In this document: piece after piece, positions 6,246 to 64,000 of the stretch | Position numbering within the stretch: position 1 is the stretch's first letter | Layout of the letters: each line of letters begins with the position of its first letter | NCBI GenBank assembly: GCA_949317995.1 | Contig: OX439047.1 | Location: 35,936,950 to 36,000,949 of the forward strand | Direction of reading: 5' to 3' | DNA: 64,000 nucleotides | Origin: Acholoe squamosa | Lineage: Eukaryota > Annelida > Polychaeta > Phyllodocida > Polynoidae | Made by a program: the position numbers and the translations under genes | The notes under the pieces: generated by a model | What the model was told of the DNA's origin: nothing | Seen by the model: the letters and a program-made list of their open reading frames with translations, nothing else | The model's database searches: none

Positions 6246-7445
6246 CTATGGAAAGGAAAGTATTCACTGTGAAGAAAATCGGAATAGAAAGGTATGAAGG
6301 TTAATGACACACAACACAGGGTAACACAGCAATCAATGATATCAAAAACAAATCCAGTGGACACAGAACATTGAATCAATATTGATAATTGGATGCTCAA
6401 TATTGAAAATTGGATGATCAATGTTTTATCACTTATCAATGTTTTCTTTTCAATGCTTAATTGTTTTGCTTAATGTCCACTGGGTTTAGGAGGGGGTTGG
6501 GAAATAAATATAATGATACATTGGAGTCAGAGTGAACATATGAGAACACATATATAAGAGAACACATATAAGAGATTGATAGATATTTGTATTTACACAG
6601 GTAGAGGTTTACAAGGTAGGGAGCATTTTCCAGGGGTTCAACTGTACGCAATGATAAAGTGGGTATAAGGCGTGACAGGACAAAGGGGACTATTACTGGG
6701 AGATTATTTGTAAAGTCTCATAAAAGAAGTCCACACGCAATCTATATAATTGTGACATGTATTGGGAATAGAGACCTTAGTGCACCTTGCACTAAGTGCC
6801 CTTTTCGTAGATCGTGTCACAATTATTTTTAAATATAATATGAACTTGATAAGAAGGTACCTGAGAAATTATAAGTGATTCAGGGTTTGTGAGATATACA
6901 ATCAATAGCTACATTGATAGGAAGTTTCTATTGAAAAATGATTTAAGTTACAGGTGATTAGTTTAAAATCAGAATTGGCTGTATATTACCCTTCCATTTG
7001 TAGCAAGCAGAATTTATTGATGGTTTTTTTAAAAATAAGTGAGTCATAGTACGTTTGGCCAACTTCATGTCTGACTTTATTCTGTGAAAATATTTCTACC
7101 TTTGATTTGATTTTTAAATCATAATTTTGATTCGAGTTTTGTTTTGTTTTTCTTTTCTCTCTCATGCCAATTGATCATTCCAATAACAATATAGGAAACA
7201 AATGTTCAATTGGCAAACATGTTACCGTACTTGTCAGATTATTCGAAAGCCAAACGTTCCTATGACAAAAGTTTAGAAACACCATACATGAATATATAAA
7301 GGAGAGAAACACACATGATTTCGAAATCGTATGACCCCAGTCGTGAGACTGATTTTGATATAGGAAAGAAGAGATTCCCCTTCCAGTGTTGATTCATGGT
7401 GCAGACTTTAGTGCAGCATTTGTATGAAACAAATTGCATGCCTAC
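6246..7445 (-). other. Gene A intron before the last exon
   Basis: This phase-2 intron has donor AAG|GTAGGC at 7445 and acceptor TAG at 6248-6246. It is AT-rich and carries one hairpin element at 6746-6826. Nothing else is recognised. Confidence 0.7.
6746..6826. repeat. Hairpin element, family H, copy 1
   Basis: This is an 81-bp imperfect inverted repeat with 39-nt arms and a 3-nt loop. The outer 12 bp (ATAATTGTGACA) and the inner 9 bp (CTTAGTGCA) pair perfectly. A second copy in the opposite orientation lies at 37468-37544, and both share TGTGACACGATCT and CGAAAAGGG in one arm. It is non-coding, either a very short foldback transposon or a mobile hairpin RNA source. Confidence 0.75.
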
Positions 7446-8602
7446 CTTCCACGCAGTGTACTCGATCCGTTAGAGCCCATGGTACCATAGGCTTCATCCA
7501 CGAGTCGCGGGCTACTACCCTCTGAGTCAGTAGCCGGGGAGGTGTGGCCATTCTGGCGGCCACCGCCCCCTCCCCCCAGGGTCATGAAGTACTTGGAGCT
7601 TCCATAGGCTGAGTCCTTATTCTGCGACCTGGGGAAGGTGCTCGCTGAGCTGCTCGACTTGGCTGAGTCCGAGTCCGATATGTTGCGCCGCTCATTGTCG
7701 CTCCTGATGCTATCGGTATAGGAGGATCCGGTCTGGGTCTTGAAGCCACTGGACTTGGAGGACCCCCCTGAGCGGGAGCTGCCAACGCTGTCCAGCTCCA
7801 GCTGATCCAGCTCGCTCTGACGCTGCGGCGGCTGCGGCTGTGGCGGAGGCGGCCCGAAGGTACTGGTGGGCGGTCGGTCGGTGTTACTGTGGCTGAACTT
7901 GGGGGAACCACGACCCGAACTATCACCGAGAATCTGGGCGATATGATGAGCGGAGAGCTTACCCATGTTGTTGTACTCCCCATCGCTGGAATCCACTTCA
8001 GAGTTGGTGAGAGGGATGTAGCGGCCACCATTTTTGTGCATGTATGGCGGTGGGGGATATTCAGGATTCCGATTCCGGCTTTTGACGACGTCCGGCATGT
8101 GAGGTGCGCCTTCGGACGAGTCATCTCTGCGGATCTTGAGGGTGGCCTGGTTGTGCTGTTGCTTCTCTATATCACTTCCCGAGCCCTCTGATTGGCTCAA
8201 GGGGATGTACTGGCCCCCCGCGCTCTTCCTTTTGTATTTTGCATCCGTCTGACTGGCGTCACCGGTCATTTTGATGTAAGACACAACTGGCTTTTCTCCT
8301 GTGAGCTCCGGCGGTGGAGGGGGAAGAGTCGACGGGTCCGGGAGTTCGGTCATCCCTTCCGGTCTGACTCCAGTCAAGGTCATTCCACTCGGATGTGCAT
8401 GGCGGGAACTGGCGACGAGGTCGGACTCTGCCGGGGGCAGGTCCTTTTGGGGGCTCCTTCCGGGGGCAAACTGCACCCGGTTAGGAGACGGTCCATCAGG
8501 GCGGCGGTCCAGGGTGTCTTCCTCACTGGAGACATACTCCTCCTGGTTAGATGACCGCGCAGTGGCCTTCTTCTTCTTTCTTTTCTTCATCTTTTGGCCA
8601 CC
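7446..8602 (-). CDS. Gene A large exon: cytoplasmic tail
   Basis: A single open exon of 1157 bp follows the acceptor TTGTTATGCAAG and ends at donor GGAAG|GTAGGC in phase 2. It begins GGQKMKKRKKKK, a polybasic juxtamembrane stretch suited to binding acidic lipids. It then runs about 385 residues through Ser/Pro/Gly-rich, probably disordered sequence. Visible motifs are EEYVSSEED (acidic, casein-kinase-2 type), a PPPPPEL run, EYPPPPYMHKN with a PPPY WW-domain ligand, and a duplicated motif: GGQYIPLSQSEGSGSD and GGRYIPLTNSEVDSSD about 65 residues apart. The end is Ser-rich with DSAYGSSKYF and VDEAYGTMG as possible tyrosine-phosphorylation sites. No enzymatic domain is seen. Its phase (0) does not fit the strong donor of the transmembrane exon (phase 1). 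Either an unseen short exon lies between, or a weaker in-frame donor at 11879 is used. Confidence 0.85.
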
Positions 8603-11600
8603 CTTGCATAACAAAGATTTGGGCATTATGCTTTTGAACATTTACAAGGGGATATACTTGAAGCAAAGATGACTAGTGAGCAAATACACATTTTTATATT
8701 GAGCATAGATCAAATCATGAAATACTATCGAGGATATGATTACTAGTATGTTAAAAACAAGTATTATATGATTCACCTTTTTATTTTTACAACTCTTAAG
8801 TATACATTTATATACAGACGTGGAACATAAAATCAATTATCATCTCTAGATCAATGGATGGGAAAATGCGATTTCCAGTAAACAAATCATGTATTATAAT
8901 GGAGACTAGACCAGAAGCATATACTAGATGGCAGTGAACTTCACCCTTCATCCAATTCACTCGCCAAAGAGACTCAAGTAGGAAAACATAACTTAAGCTT
9001 TGATAGTGTAACTGAACTAACACAAAATCTGCCCATACGGGATATTAACGGAGTTCGTGCCACACATTAAGTGGTCCAAACACAATCAAACACGTTCTTA
9101 TTTTGCTTTTCAGGATTTCCACCCAAACAAAACTCACATTTTGTCCCTTGTCGCCTTCTCCAATCTTCTCATCCAAAAGTGGTGCTTGAGAGGAATCTGC
9201 GGGAGAGAATTAAAAGTGAAAAACTAATTAAATCTATCAAGATCAATATTTTCTCCTTTTATCCTGCAAAGTGTTTCCCATATAAAATCTTCGTTGGCAT
9301 CAATTATTAGTTTGGGGCTTGATGGATATTGTGAGGTTTTGTCCCATGTTCTGTTATTTGTATTGAATTGTCCTATGATTATTTTCATAGGCGAAAGAAA
9401 TACATTGATGGGCGATTTGGTTTAGGCTGCATATTTGTGGGTTAGAAGGAGGCTATTCCTATTATCTGAAGCTATGTTGAACACAGATAATGATGCATAA
9501 TTTTAGGTCGATATCTGACATCAAACCTTTAGATCTTTAGATTCATTCATATGGTATCGATATAACGATGTTCATTGTGAGATTGTGGACTCTATTATGA
9601 AGCATTTACGGGACCCTTTTAATATCAAACTCTGGAGATAATGAACCAAAAGTGAATGCTTAATAAATCTAACGTCATATTCAAAAAGGCTTCAGTCCCT
9701 GAGGCTTAACTAGATTTTATTTTAAGAACTCAATTTCATGAAACCATGTATTCGCACTGTTAGTAGATATCAACATTTAGCCCTATGGTTAGTAGGAGGC
9801 AACCGTAGTTTTATAAAGTGTAACACAAATCTGACAATGAAAATCTTATAATTTATGAAGAGAAAAAGTCATTAAACAGAAGTATAACCACCAAAAGAAA
9901 ATCTCAACTCAAAAGAGAGACTTAAGTTATGAAAGGGTAGACAGAAACTTAAACAAAAGACATCTATTAAAATAAATTAATCTTACATCTAAAACTGTGA
10001 AATATCAAACATGAAATTGTATCCTTGTGTCGAGGAAATATCATGGTGTATATATTCCCACCAAAATCAGTCGTTTAGATACTATTGAAGTATGCGTTCA
10101 AGGTTTATGTTACAATCATTTTAAACAATTGTTGAAAACATGTGATGCTATAGTGGAACATTGACATATAACCTCCCTTTTCATAATCATAATTCTATCA
10201 AAGACTTTGAGAATAAACTGAACCACATTGGAAGCTTTCAGAGAAGTGTATTTGCGTACAGGGTGCTCTGTGTATGAACTCATAACGAACAAGTGTCCGT
10301 ACGGTGCTGCCACCTAGGTCTGTTTCTCCATACTACAAACCAGGGCGGCCACAGTAATAACTTACATAACTCATTATCCATACAGTTGACCACCGGAGCT
10401 CCAAGAATGCCTGAAATCATCATTTCACCAATATTTTAACAGGAATGTTTAGGTTTACTCTCATTTCTTTTCATCATCTAAGGCTGATGTATGAGTGAGA
10501 CGCATCAAAGGTCCTCTGGTGTAAAGTGGAAATTTATTCTGAACAAGGAACTGAAAATTGGATATGGTTAAAACCTGGAATGAAAATGAATCAGCTAGGT
10601 TTGATTTATATGGTCCTGTCTGACAATACCTGCTATTTTTCATACTATAATGCAAGTGCAGGTTATCAACTTGTAAGCACAGTATGGGAGAAACTGTAGA
10701 CTATTTTTAGGACAATAATAAAGCTAGATTACCACGACCATTATACATCAAGGAAAACATGTCAGATATTCAGGGTCAATACCATATGATTATCTGGGTA
10801 TCAGCATAACTATCGCAATAAACACTGCTCTAGTGTGGAAAAAAACAATCAGCAATGAAAAGAGCATTTCTTCTGGCTCATTCCTGCGCATTTGCACCAG
10901 CTTCGTTTGAATGACAAAGTTGATTTCCCAGGGCTAAAACAGAATAGGACACACGGCATAAAACCCGTAAGGATTCCCCCCTTTATGATTACAGAAATAA
11001 GTTATGTGATTATTCTCTAGTACGGCAGAAACCTAATTTCTGCAACCAACCCATCATGTCCGAGAAGACCAAGGTCAAAGTAATTGAATAGGGAGAGATA
11101 TAATCACCACGAAGGAGATATTGCAAGTAATATGGCTATAGCATAAACATTAAGCGTCATTTGTAATCCTTTATGGATGATGTAATTCTTTATTACGAGT
11201 TCATGTTCCATGTAAACAAAATGACAGACGACATTTATCGTGAATTCGGTTGTTCCCAATGGTGACAAGCGCCGATTTATGGCAGGAAATCCGCCCGGTG
11301 GGCCTTCGATCTTACGACTATAGGGTGGAACAAATGTGGGGGTGAAACAAAATCATGAGAAGGCCTAGCATGGACTAAATGATTTCCTTCCACTTTATGA
11401 AAAATAACAATGCGCCCCTCTCATTGAGGGAAAACATGAATTAGAATTTTATGAATTTAAGTCTACATTTTTCCTCCTTTCTTCTTGAAAAGAAAATATC
11501 AAAATAATGTAATGTTGTTCACTCGATTACACTGTTGGACAGACATACTTCATCTAATAAAGTCCTTGATGACCGTCCGAGGTATGGAAACCTTTCCAAC

Positions 11601-29000: not shown

Positions 29001-29153
29001 TGCAAATGTCCACTTCCATAAGATTTTTTACATCGTATTCCCCTCTGTGGGACTGGTCGCATCCCACTCAGCCATATAATGGCTTCGTGGGATACGCCAG
29101 TCCCACCTCAGGCAATACGAATTAAAACTATCTCATGGTCGTGGACATTTGCT
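29001..29153. mobile_element. Foldback hairpin, about 75-nt arms, 3-nt loop
   Basis: The left arm starts TGCAAATGTCCAC and the right arm ends GTGGACATTTGC. Inner blocks TGGGACTGG / CCAGTCCCA, GTGGGATACG / CGCATCCCAC and GCCAT / ATGGC pair around the loop ATA at 29076-29078. It is a short foldback transposon or hairpin. The second duplication copy at 30471 begins exactly at the first base of the right arm. Confidence 0.8.
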
Positions 29154-29740
29154 TATTTATTCATAAGATGATGACACGGTACTACCCCTGGCTGCAAACC
29201 TCCAGGAGGCTCAAGATTAATGTCTTAATCCCTTAAGGATACTATGCTGCTTCAATACACCATGTCCATTGGTCATCTGAATCCATGAATGCATTGGTCT
29301 TACCAGTACCGGTAGTGTTGAATTCATGCATCATGCCGTTCCAGCAGGAATGATACATCCCTGAAGGGTCGGTATGATACCTCAATGAAGTATTGATGAG
29401 GATATTTGCCTGCATTGCCTTGGTGCATCATGATGCCTTAGGAACATTTACCTGAAGCCACCATGCAACCCTTAAATGATTAAATCCCAGTGAACACCAT
29501 ACCAAAATGCTACGTAGATATCTGGTATAACTAGGTATGGTTCTTACCAAATTGGTTTGAATTACGTCTTTCTGGTTGGTATGTGGACACTCAAACATTA
29601 AGGTTTAGCTACTTCCTAGATACGTAATATCTTAAATATGTTTTCCTATGTATTTTTATGTTTTTCTCCTACAAAAAAAAAAAATCCTAAAAATACCAAA
29701 AAAAATGGAAAAAAAATTGTAATGCTCCCAACATCAAAAT

Positions 29741-29823
29741 CTTTTCCAGCTATGGGCTGAGATTGAACCCAGGACCCCTGAATTTGAAAAGCTTTGCTCT
29801 ACAGACTGAGCTAACCAGGAAAC
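29741..29823 (-). repeat. tRNA-like module (duplication copy 1)
   Basis: On the minus strand it reads TTAGCTCAGTCTGTAGAGC (A box with a pairing D arm) followed by GGGTTCAATCTC (B box). The spacing is that of a tRNA, but the acceptor and anticodon stems are poorly paired. It is a tRNA-derived Pol III promoter, as in a SINE head, rather than a working tRNA gene. Confidence 0.65.
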
Positions 29824-29926
29824 CAATATATCTGGCACCCAAAAGTATAACAAATTCTCTTAGCTGTAAGTATAAGGTAATGCAAATGACTTGATGGACA
29901 TTTGACACACACATCATCATCAGAAT

Positions 29927-29990
29927 CTGTAGTACAGTGGTAGGAATCCGACGTGAGAGGTCTGGGGTTCAAGGCTTCTCCTTGGTGGAA
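29927..29990 (+). repeat. tRNA-like module (duplication copy 1)
   Basis: CTGTAGTACAGTGGTAGGAA (A-box region) followed by GGGGTTCAAGGC (B box) on the plus strand. It lies about 100 bp from the opposed module at 29741-29823, so the two are back to back. Confidence 0.55.
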
Positions 29991-31133
29991 ATTTTACCAA
30001 CATTTATTTTCAGTTTTTTACCCCTTTTATAGGGAGGGTTTTGGTGGAAAAAAACCCGTAGAAATGCATATTTGTGAATACTATGTAGCTAGAACATTTA
30101 AATGTCCACATACGAAGAAAAAATATGTAGTTACAACCAAAATGTAAGACCTAGGATAAAGCCTATGTAGCCTGTATATATTCCTAGAGGGTTACTGTTT
30201 TCTTTCTAATATATTTTTTTTCTAGCATTAAAAAAGGTATTTTCTTATGTGTCTACATCTATTTCAGCACTTGAATTTTCATATTGTTCCTCGTTCCCTC
30301 TGTACAATACAAAATAATTAGGACAACATTACCTTTTACATCTTTACCTGCTGACTAGGCCCTATCCCTTGAGAGAACCAGGATTCCCATACATATATGG
30401 GGTATTATCGGGCATTTGCTGTTCTCCTACAAAAAAAAAAATCCTAAAAATACAAAAAAAAATGGAAAAAATGGCTTCGTGGGATACGCCAGTCCCACCT
30501 CAGGCAATACGAATTAAAACTATCTCATGGTCGTGGACATTTGCTTATTTATTCATAAGATGATGACACGGTACTACCCCTGGCTGCAAACCTCCAGGAG
30601 GCTCAAGATTAATGTCTTAATCCCTTAAGGATACTATGCTGCTTCAATACACCATGTCCATTGGTCATCTGAATCCATGAATGCATTGGTCTTACCAGTA
30701 CCGGTAGTGTTGAATTCATGCATCATGCCGTTCCAGCAGGAATGATACATCCCTGAAGGGTCGGTATGATACCTCAATGAAGTATTGATGAGGATATTTG
30801 CCTGCATTGCCTTGGTGCATCATGAAGCCTTAGGAACATTTACCTGAAGCCACCATGCGACCCTTAAATGATTAAATCCCAGTGAACACCATACCAAAAT
30901 GCTACGTAGATATCTGGTATAACTAGGTATGGTTCTTACCAAATTGGTTTGAATTACGTCTTTCTGGTTGGTATGTGGACACTCAAACATTAAGGTTTAG
31001 CTACTTCCTAGATACGTAATATCTTAAATATGTTTTCCTATGTATTTTTATGTTTTTCTCCTACAAAAAAAAAAAAATCCTAAAAATACAAAAAAAAATG
31101 GAAAAAAAATTGTAATGCTCCCAACATCAAAAT

Positions 31134-31216
31134 CTTTTCCAGCTATGGGCTGAGATTGAACCCAGGACCCCTGAATTTGAAAAGCTTTGCTCTACAGACT
31201 GAGCTAACCAGGAAAC
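31134..31216 (-). repeat. tRNA-like module (duplication copy 2)
   Basis: This is the duplicate of 29741-29823 at the 1392-1393-bp offset, with the same A and B boxes intact. Confidence 0.65.
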
Positions 31217-31319
31217 CAATATATCTGGCACCCAAAAGTATAACAAATTCTCTTAGCTGTAAGTATAAGGTAATGTAAATGACTTGATGGACATTTGACA
31301 CACACATCATCATCAGAAT

Positions 31320-31383
31320 CTGTAGTACAGTGGTAGGAATCCGACGTGAGAGGTCTGGGGTTCAAGGCTTCTCCTTGGTGGAA
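31320..31383 (+). repeat. tRNA-like module (duplication copy 2)
   Basis: This is the duplicate of 29927-29990 with the same A and B boxes. Confidence 0.55.
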
Positions 31384-31817
31384 ATTTTACCAACGTTTAT
31401 TTTTAGTTTTTTTCCCCTTTTATAGGGAGGGTTTTGGTGGAAAAAAACCCGTAGAAATGCGTATTTGTGAATACTATGTAGCTAGAACATTTAAATGTCC
31501 ACATACGAAGAAAAAATATGTAGTTACAACCAAAATGTAAGACCTAGGATAAAGCCTATGTAGCCTGTATGTATTTCTAGAGGGTTACTGTTTTCTTTCT
31601 AATATATTTTTTTTCTAGCATTAAAAAAGGTATTTTCTTATGTGTCTACATCTATTTCAGCACTTGAATTTTCATATTGTTCCTCGTTCCCTCTGTACAA
31701 TACAAAATAATTAGGACAACATTACCTTTTACATCTTTACCTGCTGACTAGGCCCTATCCCTTGAGTGAACCAGGATTCCCATACATATATGGGGTATTA
31801 TCGGACATTTGCTGTTC

Positions 31818-34800
31818 TTTTTACATCACATTGTTTAGCTCCATACGGAAGTGTTCCTAAATAGCGGGAGGATACTATAGGCCGCTCCACTCTGAATGAT
31901 CTCACAACAAGACAATTAGTACGCTCCTTTAGCAACCTCTTCTAATTGGTGGATGAAGACATGCTCTCCTGCAATCCATCACAGTACGTTCTATAAATAG
32001 CCACCTGAGCTGTTCCCAGATTCTGGGGAGCTGCTCCGCGCCACTGCAGCTATGCTCTGTGCCCATGTCTATATGCCCATAGATCATCTTCCTGGGCTGC
32101 TCCTGGATCCTGTATGTTGTTGCATCCTACTGGAGCTATACTTTATGCCCGTGTCCTTACCCATCCAAGGATAAGGCTGTCTCAAATCATACTCCGACAT
32201 TGCATGAGACTGGATCTAGAATCAAGTGAGTAAGAATCTCTTCTCAGTAAAGCTATACCCTGTGACCATGACAACCCCATCTGGGGTGATAGTGGATCCT
32301 CACAAGTGACTTATGTTTTAAGGTGGTCTGTGGATGGCTCATCGAATATCGGGAGATGAAGTCTAATCATTAAGATCGTTAACTGTGTCATCGGGGTGCC
32401 TAATTAAATATACTAAGACATGAGTAGACACTGGAGGAACATAGTAGCTGTAGGGCCTACGGGTCTGCAAGTTTACAGTGGATTGTATGCTCAAAATGTA
32501 GTCTCCAGCTACGTCCTAAATTAATCACGTCACAATAACATCAGGTGACGGATGCATGCGGCGTCGGCAGGTCGCCATGGTGATAACGGAGTGTCCCCTA
32601 GCGGTGACCTCTAATTTCATGTCCGGTTCAGTTTGGGCCAGGGCGGAAATTGGGATGCGGCGCTGGGAGAAGGGTTCATAATTCATCTGGCAGGGGGCGG
32701 CACTGATGGATGGCGGGAAAACTGCAGGACAAATGGAAGGAGCAGAATGTCGTCTGCTCGTGAATAAAGGTGGTAAAACACCTGTGCACCTTGGAGCAGC
32801 TCTGAAGGTCCACTTTCACACGGGTGGAGGTATTCCTGAATGGATACCGAGATGAACTCATTACTCTAACATGGACGACTTTCATTTGTAATTCATTTCC
32901 ATTTGAAAGATATTTCTCCGTTTTGCACAATAAAAGTCATGCTCATAGAAAAGCAAAGGTGTTTATATGGTTTGACGGATAGGATAAGCCAGATGATTGG
33001 AAGAGAGGACATTAGTAAAGCCATTTATGGCAAACCATATACACTTCCATGCCATTATTTTATAATTGTATCTTAATACTTTAACAGTTCCATTTGATTG
33101 ACACATACCTGATTGATTCTAAAATGAATATTCCATATATTTTGCTTACGCATAAAGAAAATGCTAAACGAATATCTGCTAAGGTATTCTCTTCCTGTAA
33201 CACATAATCGTCACTTGTCAGATTAAATACTTTATTCATGCATGGAAGCGTGTTTTTGGGCCAAAATTCAACAATACATAATACCCAGTTTTAAAAAGAA
33301 AACTATTGCTTTATGTGTTATTCAGATTTTGACATGGGGAAATCTAATCACTAACAACAAAAATGAGGACAAAACATCTTTATCTCCCTTGCTGAGAGGG
33401 ACTTTGATTGTTGATTTGTCTTTCAACTGTGTAATAGCCTCATCAGCTCGTCCTTGTTAACTACCATGACCTGCGTGGCGGTCTTTGCCCTATGACCTCC
33501 AGGGTGCCCCTTAAAAACCCCTTCAATGTTTCACAGAACTTTAGAGCAGTATGCCTATTAGCCATCAGTTCGCATGAATGCAGGTCTAGGGAGCACCTCC
33601 CAAAGCCTCTATTCAAGCATCATACCAACCCTATGCGATCAGTATTGCTCCCGAAGGTCGGCATGATGCACCAGTGCAGTGCTGTCCGGGAATGCTTATA
33701 AGTGCATCATGGACACAAGTTACTTGTATCTGGAGGTACCATGCTACCCTTAAATGGTTCAGAGAGAGTGGCTGTGATCAGAGTGTGGCGCTGGCTATCT
33801 GTGGTTACATCCTTAACCTGACTCATGGCTGCCTCAGGGTAGAGCAGCACATGCAGTGACTCAGCACACCATAACCCAATAGTGAAGGAAACTGACCCAG
33901 TGACATCAGGGTAAAAGGTTCAATTCCAGCATCTGGGCTATTTCTACGCCAGGAATTCTAGTTTTACAAGGATGGGGACTGAGCCAGGGACTGAATGTGG
34001 TAAAGCCATCTGGCAAGGCAATGGGGCTCTAAGTCTTTAAGACTTCCTTGCAACAGCTGTGCAACAACTCTTATTCCCAAAACATTGCTTTTATCCAGAA
34101 CTGAGCCTGCATTCAGAACTCTTTTTTACATTGGCTCAGACGTGGATATTTAAACATGGTAAATACACACTACCTTCGCTCGTCCATATAGGAACGTTTA
34201 GCAGTTTCTGCCTATCTAATATCACATTTCATTGATTTGTATAACTCCCTACTTTGAGGCACGGTGTAATGCTGACACTTCTCTTGCCCTCGAAATCTAC
34301 TTCCAGGGCAAGAGGGCAAATTTCAAATAGTATCCTTGCCAGTGTCTAAAGCAAAGCAGACTGATTAGCATTCCCGCTGAAGGAACCATATTCCTTATCC
34401 TATTGTGGCTCAGCCAATCTAAGGAAACGCCTCGATCACTCACTAGGTGTATGAATATAGTGATGATCGACCCTAGGAGAAATTGGAATATTGGCTGAGA
34501 ATAAGCAGGGAAATAAGCCAACAAAGGAGCCACAAAGGAGGAGACTTGCCGCAGGCCTCCCGTGAGAAAGCTGTGTATTAAGTGTCGCATGACTCATATC
34601 TGCTGTATCGTAGGGCCTGCATCCAGACATTAAGATTATGAAGCTATTGGGGAAGCTTCTTATGTCTATTCATATGAAAATAATGAACGCTGCAAGAATA
34701 GGGAAATCTGCTGGTTGGATGAAGAACTTATTATGGTTTACAGAGTGATATTCCCTTGCATTATAGCATTGTATTATTATGCAAAACTAGTGCTCTGGAA

Positions 34801-34981: not shown

Positions 34982-35256
34982 TACCGTATTGGGCTGTATA
35001 AGCGCCCGGGCGCTCATTGATTTCAACTAGCCCATACCCCCGGCACTCATTCAAGACTGGCACTTATTCAAGACTTTAACCCTTTCACCCCTGAATTTCT
35101 GTTACTCTATGGGATTTGCTTGCAAATCCTGCTTTATGGGGTGGAAGGGGTTTTAAAATATAGTGTATTTCAAAATTTCATTACCCCTGTACCCCCGACG
35201 CTTATTCAAGACCGGTGCTCATTCAAGACCCGGCGCTCATACAGGCCAATGCGATA
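34982..35256. mobile_element. TA-flanked MITE, family T, copy 1
   Basis: The left end is TACCGTATTGGGCTGTATAA and the right end is its near complement (CTCATACAGGCCAATGCGATA). TA at both borders suggests Tc1/mariner-type insertion. The body has repeated phrases TTATTCAAGAC and GGCGCTCAT. A separate segment at about 35079-35155 (AACCCTTTCACCCCTGAATT to TGGAAGGGGTTTT) also occurs alone at 48155-48230, so it is probably a nested insertion. Confidence 0.8.
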
Positions 35257-38288: not shown

Positions 38289-38473
38289 CTGGGCTTCCCT
38301 AGCCCACTTAAAAGGGTTTCTGTCTCCTCTTTCCTATCGCCTCAGATGCGGGTGGTGCACTTATGTGCAGGCACCGACACATTCCTCTGTGAAATTGTGT
38401 AATGTAGTTCTCGCCATGAATATGACCTTAGCTGTCGAAATGGCGTTAAACGTCTATTACTCACTTACTCACT
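38289..38473 (+). mobile_element. SINE-like retroposon, family S, copy 4, with 13-bp TSD
   Basis: It starts CTGGGCTTCCCTAGCCC, carries the core ATGAATATGACCTTAGCTGT and ends in (CTCAC)n. The perfect direct repeat CCAAAACCGCAAG flanks it at 38276-38288 and 38474-38486. This is the best-preserved copy and shows true element ends. Confidence 0.9.
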
Positions 38474-38630
38474 CCAAAACCGCAAGTTAATCTGCACGGA
38501 ACGGAAGCATTGGAATAATTAACAGAGCAAGTTGGGGACAGATTCAGCTTGACTCACTGTTTGGGGGCCATTGGGGGCTGTATTTCGTAAGAATCTTGGA
38601 TAGAGTGTAGCAGATACATGTACCGTATTG

Positions 38631-42986: not shown

Positions 42987-43034
<48 letters not shown>

Positions 43035-43134
43035 GTGCGGGCACTGACACATTCCTTTGTGAAAGTGTGCAGTTTAGTAGTTCTCGCCATGAATATGACC
43101 GTAGCTGTCGAAATGGCATTAATTATTCACTCAC
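42919..43134 (+). mobile_element. SINE-like retroposon, family S, copy 5, with internal (TA)n
   Basis: It starts GGGCTTTCCTAGCC, has the family core and ends in TTCACTCAC. A (TA)n microsatellite at about 42991-43031 has expanded inside it at the point where other copies read CACATATGTG. An imperfect duplication TTGTACAT lies on both sides (42905-42912 and 43135-43142). Confidence 0.8.
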
Positions 43135-43200
43135 TTGTACATGATATGTGAGCCAGCAAGCAGAAATGGGGGTTCTTGCAGGATTTAGTACCTGTTTTAG

Positions 43201-45275: not shown

Positions 45276-45325
<50 letters not shown>
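45276..45325. repeat. (CA)n microsatellite, left flank of the foldback
   Basis: About 25 CA dinucleotides on the plus strand, ending five bases before the foldback terminus at 45331. Confidence 0.95.
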
Positions 45326-45328
<3 letters not shown>

Positions 45329-46029
45329 TTGGTGTAACCAGCAAATTGGGGACATTCATGGGAACACACACCTACAAACTGGGGACGTCTTGCGAACCGG
45401 GGACGGCTCACTTCGCATGACCTTGAGAAAAGGGGTGCAATGGGTTTGGGTATCACAAATGACCTTGAAAAATGGTTATGAACATGATTTCTAGTGTGTC
45501 AACAAAATGTCCCCAATTTGGCCTGGAGCAACTTGTGCTGTGTGTAAAAAGTTAGAGCTATTTTTTTTGTGATTTTTGCCTGTGTGTAAAAGTCCCCAGT
45601 TTGTTTTGCACACTGAGAGATCTGTGTGTCCCCAGTTCGCCCAGTAATCTGGGTGTATTGCCTAATTGGCTTTATTGCCATTTCTGACCTATTAGGGATT
45701 AATCCAGTGTATTTGCATAAAAATTGTCACAAATTTGAGCCAGACGTTGAATCTGTGTGCCTGCAAACTGAGGAATTTCCTTAATAGACCCTGTGTGTCT
45801 ACAAAGTGAGGACATGACTTCACAGTGTGTGCTTGCAAACTGAGGCCTAAGAGACTTTCTCTTGGGTATGGTCAAATGCAAAGAGTGTAAACAAACTGAG
45901 GTCTTGATATTAGGCATCATATCTTTTTCTACCCCTATACAAGAGCATTCAGTCTATTTACGAAGAATAGACACATTTAAACAAGGACAAGACATCATTT
46001 TCTAGCTGTGTGCTCAAACGAATTGAGGA

Positions 46030-47945
46030 CTCAAACTCTACACAGTGTTTAGGCAAACTGAGGACATGACCATACATTGTATGTATGCAAATAGAGGACT
46101 TGGCTTAGATACACTCCACACAGTGTGTGTAGGCAAACTGAGGACATGGCCACACTGTGTTTGTATGCAAATAGAGAACTTGGTCTATAATACACTTCAC
46201 ACAGTGTGTATATGCAAATAGAGGACTTGGCCTTAGATACACTCCACACGGTGTGTATATGCAAATAGAGGATATAGTCTTAGATACACTCCACACAGTG
46301 TGTGTAGGAAAACTGAGGACATGGTCACACAGTGTGTGTATGCAAATAGAGGACTTAGTCTTAGATACACTGCACACAGTGTGTGTAGGCAGACTGAGAA
46401 CATGATCACACTGTGTGTGTTGGCAAATAGAGGACTTGGTATTAGATTCACTCCACACAGTGTGTGTAGGCAACCTGAGGACATGGCCACACTGTGTTTG
46501 TATGCAAATAGAGGACATGGTCTAAGATACACTCCACACAGTGTGTGTAGGTAAATAGAGGACATGGCCACACTGTGTTTGTAGGCAATTATAAAACGGC
46601 AGCCCATGCAATGCTGCACAGTAGAAGTGACCTTGAGTGCATTATAGGAGTACAGTGCAAGCCTGAGCAAGTTCACAGCTTGTATATCATTATTCCTGTG
46701 GGATATCAGTCTCAACATGAAGAATATCGTTGTCTTTTCTCTAAATAGAGGACATGGTCTTAGATACACTCCACACAGTGTGTGTAGGCAAACTGAGGAC
46801 ATTAGTTCACAGAATGTGTATGCAAATAGAGAACTTGGTCTTAGATACACTCCACACAGTGTGTGTAGGCAAACTGAGGACATTAGTATACAGAATGTGT
46901 ATGCAAATAGAGGACTTGGCCTTAGATACACTCCCCCACACAGTGTGTGTAGGCAAACTGAGGACATGGCCACACAGTGTGTGTATGCAAATAGAGGACT
47001 TAGTCTTAGATACACTCCACACAGTGTGTGTAGGCAGACTGAGGACATGATCACACTGTGTGTGTTGGCAAATAGAGGACTTGGTATTAGATTCACTCCA
47101 CACAGTGTGTGTAGGCAAACTGAGGACATGGCCACACTGTGTTTGTATGCAAATAGAGGATATGGTCTAAGATACACTCCACACAGTGTGTGTAGGCAAA
47201 TAGAGGACATGGCCACGCTGTGTTTGTAGGCAATTATAAAACGGCAGCCAATGCACTGCTGCACAGTAGAAGTGACCTTGAGTGCATTAAAGGAGTACAG
47301 TGCATGCCTTAGCAAGGTCACAGCTTGTCTATCATTCCTGTGGGATATCAGAGCCTCAACATGAAGAATATCGTTGTCTATTCTCTAAATAGAGGACATG
47401 GTCTTAGATACACTCCACACAGTGTGTGTAGGCAAACTGAGGACATTAGTTCACAGAATGTGTATGCAAATAGAGGACTTGGCCTTAGATACACTCCCCC
47501 ACAGTGTGTGTAGGCAAACTGAGGACATGGCCACACAGTGTGTGTATGCAAATAGAGGACTTAGTCTTAGATACACTCCACACAGTGTGTGTAGGCAGAC
47601 TGAGGACATGTTCACACTGTGTGTGTTGGCAAATAGAGGACTTGGTATTAGATTCACTCCACACAGTGTGTGTAGGCAAACTGAGGACATGGCCACACTG
47701 TGTTTGTATGCAAATAGAGGACATGGTCTAAGATACACTCCACACAGTGTGTGTAGGCAAAGTGAGGACATTAGTTCACAGAATGTGTATGCAAATAGAG
47801 GACTTGGTCTTAGATACACTCCCCCACACAGTGTGTGTAGGCAAACTGAGGACATTAGTATACAGAATGTGTATGCAAATAGAGGACTTAGTCTTTGATA
47901 CACTCCACACAGTGTGTGTGGGCAGACTGAGGACATGATCACACT
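46030..47945 (+). repeat. Left minisatellite array (81-bp dimer)
   Basis: The 81-bp unit is a dimer of two roughly 40-bp halves: one with GGCAAACTGAGGACATGGCC, the other with GCAAATAGAGGACTTGG. Each half carries the dyad CACACAGTGTGTG. About twenty units are present, interrupted twice by a roughly 130-bp unique spacer. The unit length is a multiple of three with few stops, which leaves long frames open on both strands. Confidence 0.92.
46554..47408 (+). repeat. 648-bp higher-order duplication within the left array
   Basis: The spacer starting AATTATAAAACGGCAGCC occurs at 46587 and 47231. Its surrounding array is repeated with it, at an offset near 648 bp. A few substitutions and a small deletion separate the copies. 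Confidence 0.85.
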
Positions 47946-48230
47946 GTCTAATTGGGCCATAAAGGCTTACCATTCCTCCCATGCTGCTGTACTGTTAGAG
48001 ATTGGTCTAAGTCACCATTTTTGTGCAATGAGGGCCACCCTTTTTTTTTTTAATTTTTACCCCAAATAAAGTCTTAATTCTCTATATATCAATATAAAGA
48101 GTTTTTCATATAATTTTCTTGGACCCTTTCATGGGATGGGCCCCCCCCCCTCTTTTAACCCATTCACTCCTGGATTTCCGTGTAGGGGATTTGTATGCAA
48201 ATCCTGCTTCATGGGTGGAAGGGGGGGGCC
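47946..48230. other. Loop of the foldback structure
   Basis: About 285 bp separate the opposed arrays. The segment contains a T-run, a C-run, and at 48155-48230 a dispersed repeat also found at 35079-35155 (GGATTTG..TGCAAATCCTGCTT). Confidence 0.7.
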
Positions 48231-49460
48231 ATGTCCTCAGTTTGCATGCACACTTTGTGTGCTAATGTACTCTATTTGCATGCACATACGGTGTACTAAC
48301 ATCCTCACTTTGCCTAAGCACATTGTGTGCAGTAGATCTAAGACCAAGTCCACTATTTGCATACACACACAGTGTGCTAAAGTCCTCAGTTTGCCTACAC
48401 ACACTAAGTGGAGTAGATGTAAGACCAAGTCCTCTTTTTGCAAACACACACTGTGTGGCCATGTCCTCAGTTTGCCTACACACACGTTATGGAGTGGATC
48501 TAAACCCAAGTCCACTATTTGCCAACACACACTGTGTGCTAATGTCCTCAGTTTGCCTACACACACTACCGTAAAATCTCACTCAGAAGCTGACCTCCAT
48601 CAGAAGCTGACCCCATAACTTCAATAGAATTTAGAAGCTGAATTCTGCACTATTTAAATATGGTTAAACAGTAATTCACTTGATTTAAAAACCTCCCCCA
48701 TAAGCCGACCCCCCAACTTATGTAAATGCTATAAGCTGAATTTAGGTTCAAATCCCAAATTTTGGTCAGCCTCCGGGGGAAGGTTATGTGGTAAGTGAGG
48801 TAGATCTAAGACCAAGTCCTCTATTTGCCAACACACACTGTTTGGCCATGTCCTCAGTTTGCTACACACACTGTGTTGAGTAGATCTTAGACCAAGTCCT
48901 CAATTTGCCAACACACACTATGTGGCAATGTCCTCAGTTTGCCTACACACACTGTGTGGAGGAGATCTTAGACCAAGTCCTCTATTTGCCAACACACACT
49001 ATGTGGCAATGTCCTCAGTTTGCCTACACACATTGTGTGGAGTAGATCTTAGACCAAGTCCTCTATTTGCCAACACACACTATGTGGCAATGTCCTCAGT
49101 TTGCCTACACACACTGTGTGGAGTAGATCTATGACTAAGTCCTCTATTTGCCAACACTCACTGTTTGGCAATGTCCTCAGTTTGCCTACACACACTGTGT
49201 GGAGTGTATCTACGACTATATCCTCTATTTTCATATACACACTGTGTGGAGTGTATCTTAGACCAAGTTCTCTATTTGCGTACAAACACAGTGTGGCCAT
49301 GTCCTCAGTTTGCCTACACACACTGTGTGGAGTGAATCTAAGACCAAGTCCTCTATTTGCCAACACACATTGTGTGGCCATGTCCTCAGTTTGCATAAAC
49401 ACAGAGTGTGTTCACATGATGTCCTCAGTTTGTATACACACTTTGAGTCTCCACTTTGTT
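48231..49460 (-). repeat. Right minisatellite array (inverted copy of the left)
   Basis: About twelve units of the complementary sequence (GTCCTCAGTTTGCCTACACA and AAGTCCTCTATTTGCC) appear on the plus strand. The array is broken once by the insertion at 48567-48795. Units here more often have CCAACACACAC in place of the CATACACACAC of the left arm, so the arms have diverged. Confidence 0.9.
48567..48795. mobile_element. MITE-like insertion in the right array
   Basis: A non-array segment begins TACCGTAAAATCTCACTCAG and contains AGAAGCTGACC several times in varied form. It ends GGTTATGTGGTAAGTGAGGT, partly complementary to its start. The array resumes in the same register of units after it. 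Confidence 0.6.
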
Positions 49461-49812
49461 TCAGCACATAGCTAGGCAATAATATCTTACCCTTTTTTAA
49501 ACTGATTGTTCTTCTTAAATGGACTGAATATGCTTGTAATTAAGGATGGAAAAGTAGATGTAAGATGAATATTTGAATTGTACAAACATGTCCTCACTTG
49601 GGTAATGATGCACTGGTCATGTCCTCAGTTTAGAGGCATCGTACTATTCTACTTTGGAGCACCACAGGTCAGCTCAGTATTTTTCAAAATAACTTCCAAC
49701 AGCTTAATTTGAGTTAAAATTGATCTATGCCCCTAATTGAACCCCAAGTAAGTGAAAGCTGGGTGAATTTTGGAATGTCCCCGCTTTGTAGGAGTGTGCA
49801 ACAGTGTCCCCG
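49461..49812. other. Right inner flank of the foldback
   Basis: AT-rich sequence with scattered GTCCTCA and GTCCCC words, paralleling the left inner flank at 45390-46030. No gene is seen. Confidence 0.5.
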
Positions 49813-49853
49813 ATTTGCTGGTTACACCTGTACACACGCACGCACGCATGCAT

Positions 49854-49856
<3 letters not shown>

Positions 49857-49930
<74 letters not shown>
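49857..49930. repeat. (CA)n microsatellite, right flank of the foldback
   Basis: About 37 CA dinucleotides, preceded by CGCACGCACGCATGCATG, on the same strand as the left flank tract. Confidence 0.95.
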
Positions 49931-60779: not shown

Positions 60780-62262
60780 TTTAGGAGTTTTAAGTGGCAT
60801 GATGAATTGATGCACATTTAAACCTTTATGGATGGCATGATGCATTGATGCACACTTAGACCTTTATGGATAGCATGATGTATTGATGCACACTTAACCC
60901 CTTAGGGATGTATTGATGCACACTTAACCCTTTATAGATGGCATGATGCATTGATGCACACTTAACCCTTTAGGGATAGCATGATACATTGATGCACACT
61001 TAACCCCTTAGGGATGTATTGATGCACACTTAACCCTTTATAGATGGCATGATGCATTGATGCACAATTAAACCTTTATGGATGGCATGATGCATTGGTG
61101 CACACTTAGACCTTTATGGATAGCATGTTGCATTGATTCACACTTAACCCTTTATAGATGGCATGATGCATTGATGTACACTTAACCCTTTATGAATGGC
61201 ATGATGCATTGATGCACACTTAACCCTTTATAGATGTATTGATGCACACTTAACCCTTTGTAGATTGCATGATGCATCGATGCACTCTTAACCCTTTATG
61301 GATGTATTGATGCACACTTAACCCTTTGTAGATTGCATGATGCATTGATGCACACTTAACCTTTAGGGATAGCATGATGCATTGATGCACAATTAAACCT
61401 TTATGGATGGCATGATGCATTGGTGCACACTTAGACCTTTATGGATAGCATGATGCATTGATTCACACTTAACCCTTTATAGATGGCATGATGCATTGAT
61501 GCACACTTAACCCCGTTAGGGATAGCATGATGCATTGATGCACACTTAACCCTTTATAGATGGCATGATGCATTGATGCACACTTAACCCTTCATGGATA
61601 GCATGATGCATTGATGCACACTTAACCCTTTATAGATGTATTGATGCACACTTAACCCTTTATAGATGGCATGATGCATTGATGCACACTTAACCCTTTA
61701 TGGATATCATGATGCATTGGTGCACACTTAGACCTTTATGGATAGCATGATGTATTGATGCACACTTAACCCCGTTAGGGATAGCATGATGCATTGATGC
61801 ACACTTAACCCTTTATAGATGGCATGATGCATTGATGCACACTTAACCCTTCATGGATAGCATGATGCATTGATGCACACTTAACCCTTTATAGATGTAT
61901 TGATGCACACTTAACCCTTTATAGATGGCATGATGCATTGATGCACACTTAACCCTTGAGGGATGGCATGATGCATTGATGCACACTTAACCCTTGAGGG
62001 ATGGCATGATGCATTAATGCACATTTAACCCTTCATGGGTGGCATGATGCATTGATGTACACTTAACGCTTTCGGGATGGCATGATGCATTGATGCACAC
62101 CTAACCCTTTATAGATGGCATGATACATTGATTTACACTTAACCCTTTAGGGATGGCATGATGCATTGGTGCACACTTAACCCTTTATGGATGGCATGAT
62201 GCATTGATGCACAATTAACCCTTTATGGGTGACCTGCTACATTGATGCACACTTTAAGCATT
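60780..62262. repeat. 38-bp satellite array
   Basis: About 39 units of GGCATGATGCATTGATGCAC followed by ACTTAACCCTTTAT. The spacing is 38 bp (for example 61924 to 61962), with shorter units missing the GGCATGATGCA part. Telomere-like TTAACCC is part of each unit, but the array is interstitial. Solitary relics occur near 15675 and 33700. Confidence 0.93.
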
Positions 62263-62329: not shown

Positions 62330-64000
62330 AATACACGCCTCCTAGTTGTTTTCCATGTGTGTCAGCCATCTTTGTTTTAGGAAACACAGGGATCCAGCTC
62401 ATATATTGTCAATTTTAATCTTCAAAAGTTATCAGATGGATGTTAGTGACCATTGGGACACCTCAACTAGCTAATTTTATTGTTCTCACTATATATCGGC
62501 CATCTTTGTTTTAGGAAACACAGGGATCCAGGCCATATATGGTCAACTTCGATCTTCAAAAGTTATCAGATGGATGTTAGTGACCATTGGGACACCTCAA
62601 GTACCTAATTTTATTGTTTTCCATGTGTATCGGCCATCTTGGTTTTCGGAAACACAGGGATCCAGGTCATATGTGGTCAATTTTGATCTTCAAAAGTTAT
62701 CAGATGGATGTTAGTGACCATTGGGAGACCTCAACTACCCAATTTTGTTGTTTTCCATGTGTGTCGGCTATCTTTGTTTTAGGAAACACAGGGATCCAGG
62801 TCATACATGGTCAATTTTGATCTTAAAAAAAAAGTTATAGATGGATGTTAGTGACCATTGGGACACCTCAACTACCCAATTTTATTGTTTTCCATGTGTG
62901 TCGGCCATCTTTGTTTTAGGAAACACAGGGATCCAGGTCATATGTGGTCAATTTTGATCTTCAAAAGTTATCAGATGGATGTTAGTGACCATTGGGAGAC
63001 CTCAACTACCCAATTTTGTTGTTTTCCATGTGTGTCGGCCATCTTTGTTTTAGGAAACACAGGGATCCAGGTCATACATGGTCAATTTTGATCTTAAAAA
63101 AAAAGTTATAGATGGATGTTAGTGACCATTTGGACACCTCCACTACCCAATTTTATTGTTTTCCATGTGTGTCGGCCATCTTTGTTTTAGGAAACACAGG
63201 GATCCAGGTCATATGTGGTCAATTTTGATCTTCAAAAGTTATCAGATGGATGTTAGTGACCATTGAAAGACCTCAACTACCTAATTCTATTTTTTTTCAA
63301 TATGTGTCAACCAACTTTGTTTTAGAAAACACAGGGATCCAGGCCATATATGGTCAACTTTGATCTTCAAAAATTATCAGATGGATGTTAGTGACCATTG
63401 GGAGACCTCAACTACCCAATTTTATTGTTTTCCATGTGTGTCGGCCATCTTGGTTTTAGGAAACACAGGGATCTAGGTCATATGTGGTCAATTTTGATCT
63501 TCAAAAGATATCAGATGGATGTTAGTGGCCATTAGGACACCTCAACTACCTAATTCTATTGTTTTCCTTGTGTGTCTGCCATCTTGGTTTTAGGAAACAC
63601 AGGGATCCAGGTCATATGTGGTCAATTTTAATCTTCAAAAGATATCAGATGGATGTTAGTGACCATTGGGACACCTCAACTACCTAATTCTATTGTTTTC
63701 CTTGTGTGTCGGCCATCTTGGTTTTAGGAAACACAGAGATCCAGGTCATATGTGGTCAATTTCGATCTTCAAATGTTATCAGATGGATGTTAGTGACCAT
63801 TGAAAGACCTCAACTGCCTAATTCTATTGTCTCCATATGTGTCGGCCATCTTTGTTTTAGGAAACACAGGGGTCCAGGTCATATATGGTCAACTTCGATC
63901 TTCAAAAGTTATCAGATGGATGTTAGTGACCATTGGAAGACCTCAACTACCTAATTCTTTTGTTTTCCTTGTGTGTCGGCCATCTTGGTTTCAGGATCAC
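62330..64000. repeat. 134-bp satellite array, running off the window
   Basis: More than twelve units contain GGCCATCTTTGTTTTAGGAA, ACACAGGGATCCAGGTCATA and TATCAGATGGATGTTAGTGA. Spacing is 134 bp at 62365, 62499 and 62633. A variant unit with an A-run before GTTATAGATGG recurs at an offset of 271 bp, showing recent duplication of a two-unit block. Frames of 77-82 codons are repeat-derived. Confidence 0.93.

Follow-up and report, generated by a model that had tools for sequence, protein, structure and literature searches.

A family of annelid foldback elements with minisatellite arms lies in (TG)n·(CA)n microsatellites with strong strand polarity

We analysed a stretch of 64,000 nt from the polynoid annelid Acholoe squamosa (assembly GCA_949317995.1, contig OX439047.1, positions 35,936,950 to 36,000,949 of the forward strand; hereafter the window), which holds a complete, bounded foldback element at 45327-49832 with (CA)n on either side. 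The element belongs to a family, here named A, whose copies have precise ends and lie mostly in (TG)n·(CA)n microsatellites with strong polarity and in constant phase, stack within common tracts and in many cases have grown to 20–40 kb. Family A probably consists of non-autonomous foldback DNA transposons that are moved in trans and have (TG)n·(CA)n tracts as their target; as superfamily we tentatively propose the Mutator-like elements (MULEs), of the Phantom/Tm1 type. Positions given without a contig are those of the window.

By its structure, with inverted tandem-repeat arms, a variable middle and dispersed copies, the window copy is a foldback transposon. An earlier note, made from the letters of the window, had described a foldback at 45331..49828 with opposed arrays of an 81-bp unit as arms, and its coordinates proved right to within a few bases: GGTGTAACC has its first base at 45331 and its complement has its last base at 49828, and four constant bases lie outside each end. 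On the left these form the tip AGTT (45327-45330, plus strand), which was placed by the junctions of other copies and occurs in 21 of the 22 left ends read directly, the remaining one being TGTT; the G at 45326 may be part of the element too. The right tip TGTA (49829-49832, plus strand) was placed by ten right ends of other copies read directly. The terminal inverted repeats that bound the arrays, GGTGTAACCAGCAAATT... at 45331-45386 (plus strand) and ...ATTTGCTGGTTACACC at 49777-49828 (minus strand), match each other over 56 columns at 80% (GGTGTAACCAGCAAATTGGGGACA..., E 9e-11 for left versus right end), and in five copies including this one they measure 48–58 bp at 79–83%.

The left subterminal region (45387-46034, plus strand) leads into the left array (46035-47947, plus strand), which holds 23.6 copies of the 81-bp unit with sub-periods of 34 and 47 bp and twice contains a non-satellite segment (46590-46745 and 47233-47390). 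A loop of 285 bp follows at 47948-48232, in line with the note, and part of it (48154-48224) is similar to a repeat at 35075-35150. The right array (about 48233-49430, minus strand) consists of the same unit inverted and was detected in pieces of period 81. Both arrays were found where the note had seen the arms, the right one being interrupted by a foreign insert at about 48569-48800, which is common to the relative copy L028. In a second inverted match, at 71% over 182 columns (E 1e-21), the inner part of the left subterminal region (45925-46099) corresponds to the right arm, so the homology of the arms extends past the tandem units; the longest inverted pair measures 391 nt with 87% complementarity. 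The core motif CAAA N1-3 G[AG]GGAC is part of the terminal inverted repeat and recurs all along the arms, with 29 forward occurrences in the element, all in the left arm, and 23 reverse ones (21 in the right arm and 2 in the left), compared with one forward and none reverse in the rest of the window. Reading frames of at least 120 codons inside the element are satellite read-through. The window gave no matches with Rfam or in a tRNA scan, and Pfam searches of four window frames, one of them satellite read-through, gave only matches below the curated cut-offs. The idea of a double-stranded transcript, also put forward in the note, follows from the opposed arms; a transcript folded in this predicted way may feed small-RNA pathways.

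Further copies were sought in the host genome of 1.48 Gb (63 contigs, the window lying on one of 71 Mb), whose COX1 is translated well by the invertebrate mitochondrial code, in which AGA stands for serine and ATA for methionine. With the left 354 bp as query, the 40 matches scored among 885 candidates stand at 97–100%. A genome-wide search for the termini, as the note had suggested, was made with exact 20-mers including the tips and yielded 143 left ends and 150 right ends, the window's own among them, with no sites for the reversed-letter controls of either 20-mer; these ends contain the tips by construction of the patterns, and copies with altered tips (e.g. L013) are missed. The earlier note had named an assembly artefact and the lack of a second locus with shared termini as outcomes that would speak against it; neither came true, as many loci carry the same termini, and the element is not an assembly artefact. 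Pairing used every one of the 100 right ends listed and, since the right list stopped earlier, 96 of the 100 left ends, the final four on C12 being set aside; one unpaired coordinate (C9:57365900) was entered by its other end. It gave 64 same-strand pairs, and left and right neighbours on opposite strands within 70 kb occurred once. The paired copies range from 2.1 to 58.6 kb, where the largest may span an unlisted end: 19 are shorter than 8 kb, 15 measure 8–19 kb and 30 reach at least 19 kb. The interpretation of the note is supported in part: it was right in seeing a foldback element with tandem-repeat arms, and incomplete in that the 4.5-kb form is one size among 2–59 kb. A close relative, L028 on C10, is 99.4% and 98.6% identical to the window copy in the outer 360 bp; the full alignment, in which the repeat arrays align loosely, gives 93.4%, and its gaps measure 162 and 81 bp, which are whole units, as well as 43 and 38 bp.

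Among the microsatellites of animals, TG/CA repeats are common. At the window copy both outer flanks are (CA)n, in agreement with the note: the left flank, the target microsatellite, lies at 45277-45324, and the right flank, CACACGCACGCACGCATGCATG(CA)n, is alternating pyrimidine-purine from 49833 to 49930, with (CA)n proper at 49855-49930. The note had taken one such tract as the target; the element is indeed lodged in (CA)n, and the microsatellite turns out to be the usual target of the whole family. Direct reading of 22 left ends showed a TG tract, in some cases an interrupted one, before 21 of them and an AC tract before one, that of the window copy; all ten right ends of other copies read in this way continue into TG. 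Genome-wide, 118 left ends are preceded by GTGTGTN and one, again the window copy, follows six A/C bases, for which the reversed-letter control also gave one hit; both counts use a 16-base end and are not an exact split of the 143. About 24 left ends match neither pattern, and the five of them that were read (L007, L011, L063, L065 and L067) are interrupted TG tracts. Six G/T bases follow 139 of the 150 right ends, the window's own, in its CA tract, being among the other 11. No copy other than that of the window was found in reverse orientation to the microsatellite. The phase is constant in pure tracts, TG/AGTT on the left and TGTA/TG on the right, and the flanks of the window copy, ACACACG/AGTT ... 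TGTA/CACACGCACG, keep the alternation of pyrimidine and purine. L028 carries the right-arm insert of the window copy yet lies in (TG)n, and two such closely related copies in opposite orientation to the microsatellite indicate that the unit AGTT...TGTA moved precisely.

Elements of this kind also stack. Pairing revealed three places where the right end of one A element lies close to the left end of the next, at distances of 24, 40 and 60 bp; the 24-bp join (L015) was read and is microsatellite. Three more such joins were found by eye, one on C12 and two on C13. The flank of L018 is a second minisatellite-bearing family, B, with 40 matches at 97–100% scored among 638 candidates. The 16 best of these 40 were cut out (L042-L057); they carry the minisatellite core CCTTATGAGG, and at all 16 loci the right end, ...GACCAATTGTGGGGATG or a variant, is joined to a GT-rich tract in the same polarity. 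No similarity of A and B was detected at E 1e-3 between the window element and both sides of locus L045, and one test for inverted arms in family B found none. The order is B then A at L004, L018 (= L042), L043 and L049, B then B-like at L044 and L045, and A then B-like at L075/L076. L049 (C17:1452817-1453089 and flanks) is chimeric: its left end is of type A and its interior B-like, and it adjoins a B right end within one microsatellite. Families A and B share target and polarity and stack in common microsatellites, a likeness to the modular arrays of plant microsatellite-targeting MULEs. Passive homologous recombination, by which extrachromosomal circles with an element and (TG)n enter other (TG)n tracts, would cover the TG on both sides, the stacks and the missing target duplication (see below), with orientation and phase set by one founder. 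The window copy, however, has the same tips between (CA)n flanks and no TG remnant at its junctions, which, for this one copy, calls for precise recognition of the ends, and two unrelated families would each need such a founder; we consider passive recombination quite improbable.

Our preferred explanation remains a non-autonomous foldback transposon with an enzyme that, we infer, is supplied in trans. Mutator-like membership is plausible and is favoured because Tm1 joins tandem-repeat foldback arms with asymmetric tips outside the inverted repeat, a feature present in family A as AGTT and TGTA, and because the microsatellite-targeting foldbacks that we found described are Mutator-like elements. 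Here and below, statements on published systems refer to excerpts of the cited papers. Tm1 of root-knot nematodes (Mutator/Foldback, Phantom subclass) has tandem-repeat arms with a unit of ∼14 bp, inverted repeats preceded by short asymmetric tips, generally of one kind per end, mostly 9-bp duplications, and some groups without transposase (PMC3169594). Family A resembles it in tandem-repeat arms and asymmetric tips and differs in its (TG)n target with polarity, its 81-bp unit and copies that reach at least 42 kb. A transposase encoded elsewhere would bind the core motif of the terminal inverted repeat, and the 81-bp arrays would be amplified copies of this motif that offer extra binding sites, as in Galileo. 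The putative enzyme would favour alternating pyrimidine-purine DNA, and the unequal tips AGTT and TGTA would set the orientation of insertion.

Several observations weigh against this explanation. No transposase gene was found in the copy pieces read. Hits to the MULE domain, compared by eye with the listed ends, are few (36 genome-wide), and for a MULE exon on C12 that lies 16 kb inside an unpaired left end the 1.6 kb read contain no A sequence. Cut-and-paste elements do not usually show strong polarity or head-to-tail joins. The microsatellite-targeting MULEs described are plant elements (PMC5907723, PMC4486113), and Tm1 has no clear target preference according to the excerpt of PMC3169594. 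No clear 9-bp duplication emerged: we compared 9-bp flanks in 15 copies, assuming the terminus GAGTT, with four of the copies (pairs L063-L070) picked for an imperfect left flank, and found six at 9/9, six at 8/9, two at 7/9 and one out of phase. The 9/9 matches occur in pure TG only, the window copy (CACACACAC/CACACGCAC) is among those at 8/9, and an interruption shared by both flanks was seen in none of the 15. Finally, a duplication of odd length fits the phase only with GAGTT as left terminus; AGTT would break it. A six-bp duplication (CACACG/CACACG), predicted from the window copy, was rejected as it was not borne out in ten further copies.

A rolling-circle mechanism of the Helitron or Helentron kind, in which one end initiates, the other terminates and no target duplication is made, would agree with the polarity (118:1 among classified left ends), with the joins of 24–60 bp between copies, with the chimera L049, whose A left end runs into B-like sequence, and with the lack of a positive target duplication in the 15 copies. 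Searches for RepHel (Helitron_like_N) gave 87 matches in the genome with all 98 candidates scored (e.g. G000:C7:44649077), many of them in open frames of 2000–3000 codons, which suggests that the Helitrons of this genome were recently active and counts for such a mechanism. A helitron-like family of Lepidoptera that reportedly disrupts (GAAA)n microsatellites points the same way. On the other hand, the 64 paired intervals contain none of the 59 RepHel hits compared with them on C1-C12; of the 60 rows for these contigs one, a fragment next to another hit, was set aside, and hits on C13 and above were omitted. The window copy has no terminal hairpin at either end (DNA fold z-scores of −1.1 to +1.2 for four stretches), and its inverted repeats lie 4 bp from both ends, not 20–60 bp from the 3′ end as in Helitron2/HINE. 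We therefore regard rolling-circle transposition as unlikely, although it deserves attention. Helitron2/HINE as such was rejected since the window copy lacks a 3′ hairpin and asymmetrically placed inverted repeats, and Replitrons were rejected because a review passage gives them short direct, not inverted, repeats.

The inverted repeats and the TG junctions also bring to mind a P-superfamily (Galileo-like) or other DDE transposon, or a Crypton-like recombinase with a TG crossover core. The inverted repeats of Galileo are long and repetitive inside, both polarity and phase would follow from a recombinase that has a TG core, and DUF3504 is abundant in the genome (at least 151 matches, with 150 of 621 candidates scored); yet none of the 105 DUF3504 hits entered for C1-C12 falls into the 64 paired intervals, and we consider this group of explanations distinctly unlikely. 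In a broader proposal, at least two unrelated families would dock at TG, strand-polar and phase-locked, by a polar mechanism outside the described superfamilies, either rolling-circle or recombinase, with one-way stacks and with one family moving blocks of 20–40 kb; this is a minority possibility that we take seriously.

The 30 large paired copies, as far as they were read at the relevant place, hold a Ty3/gypsy element or its remnant and a tandem unit of ∼3 kb. The nested frames encode RNase H and integrase (Pfam) as well as protease and reverse transcriptase (read by eye), and in several giant copies gag-pol frames occur at element coordinates of about 4.8–12.6 kb. Frames of this kind could indicate that each giant copy is a giant retroelement with inverted ends, driven by a gag-pol of its own. 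However, the gag-pol has its own long terminal repeats (LTRs) of ∼355 bp (358 and 351 bp in the C9 copy, 335/351 identical), which start with TG and end with CA, together with a polypurine tract and a flanking CAAG duplication. In the C9 copy these LTRs lie near 4.17 and 13.45 kb, inside the element and not at its own ends. The 5′ junction was read in the C9 and C4 copies and the 3′ junction in those on C9, C7, C8 and C10, and an 11-kb copy (L021) contains a solo LTR between the same flanks. For copies read at both LTRs or at a solo LTR, gag-pol as driver is refuted and gag-pol is a passenger; in general we find a giant retroelement hardly credible. The gypsy element is nested at one site and has spread with the giant copies (L029, L022, L024, L033 and L035; solo LTR in L021), and copies of 12.4 and 13.6 kb hold an apparent deleted gypsy remnant. 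The tandem unit downstream of gypsy measures 3035–3058 bp in three copies and 2642 and 3667 bp in two others, and each unit contains an 85–87% copy of element bases 102-232. In their TG tracts the giant copies L025, L031, L032 and L037 are flanked by different sequences (the stretches read in L032 and L037 do not cover the gypsy site), so DNA of tens of kilobases at a time has spread, presumably through transposition. The parts read of giant and mid-size copies hold only known modules, gypsy and another gypsy-like nested element (L023/L034), and no autonomous copy was found in them. The frames in the 8.2- and 8.7-kb copies we take, from their motifs, to be non-LTR retrotransposons.

Among described elements, the SaTar MULEs of guayule and rice target microsatellites and form modular arrays there, the non-autonomous ones measuring 0.4–1.9 kb (PMC5907723), and the microsatellite-targeting MuTAnT of Medicago is said to form a foldback structure (PMC4486113). 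Like family A these are inverted-repeat elements in microsatellites; unlike it they are plant elements. MuTAnT, Micron and the citrus elements target (TA)n, which is self-complementary and cannot show polarity (PMC5907723, PMC4486113). In Galileo (P superfamily, Drosophila) the tandem repeats within the inverted repeats hold transposase binding sites, as shown by footprinting and band shifts (PMC3688188), and Tetris, also of Drosophila, has long inverted repeats with internal tandem repeats and duplications of 8–10 bp (PMC4079207). Both share tandem repeats in long inverted repeats with family A, whereas the excerpts describe no microsatellite target for them. HINE/Helentron elements (pearl, DINE-1, Cg_HINE) have central tandem repeats and subterminal inverted repeats and make no duplication (PMC4067079, PMC7492417), and they differ from family A in having a palindrome at the 3′ end, an inverted repeat set well back from that end, and T-rich target sites. 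Large blocks of DNA were moved between foldback elements in Ising's composite TE of Drosophila (PMC6431247); there the block lies between separate foldbacks, whereas family A carries its load inside one element.

What is unusual is the combination of an animal foldback, (TG)n as the usual target with 118:1 polarity among classified ends, a second unrelated family with the same habit and large composites. None of the titles found in the literature searches reports an animal foldback that targets (TG)n, although this does not prove that none exists. The TU elements of sea urchins are modular foldbacks with tandem repeats in their arms, and they are not known to have a microsatellite target. Foldback hosts listed in PMC4079207 include the sea urchin. 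Since family A lands in one orientation, it provides a natural experiment on how mobile elements recognise a repetitive target that is possibly prone to form a left-handed helix. The family could account for sets of microsatellites with shared flanks, a source of confusion in genotyping. Moreover, the foldback seeds repeats at several scales (34/47 bp, 81 bp and ∼3 kb) and carries a passenger retrotransposon to many sites.

The window contains further features outside the element. A dispersed repeat of ∼180 bp occurs in full or partial copies that are 80–87% alike (743-920, 2736-2917, 38290-38474 and 43031-43136). An open frame of 399 aa on the minus strand (7442-8641), rich in proline and serine, gave no Pfam hit and a chance-level match to the PDB; it is perhaps a cytoplasmic tail exon. 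Two A-rich direct repeats of 1349 bp, 99% identical and separated by ∼45 bases (29078-30425 and 30470-31818), are either a recent duplication or an LTR-like pair. Towards the end of the window lie two tandem arrays, one of 40 copies of a 38-bp unit (60795-62254) and one with a unit of 134/271 bp (12 or 6 copies, respectively) at 62346-63996, which reaches the window's end.

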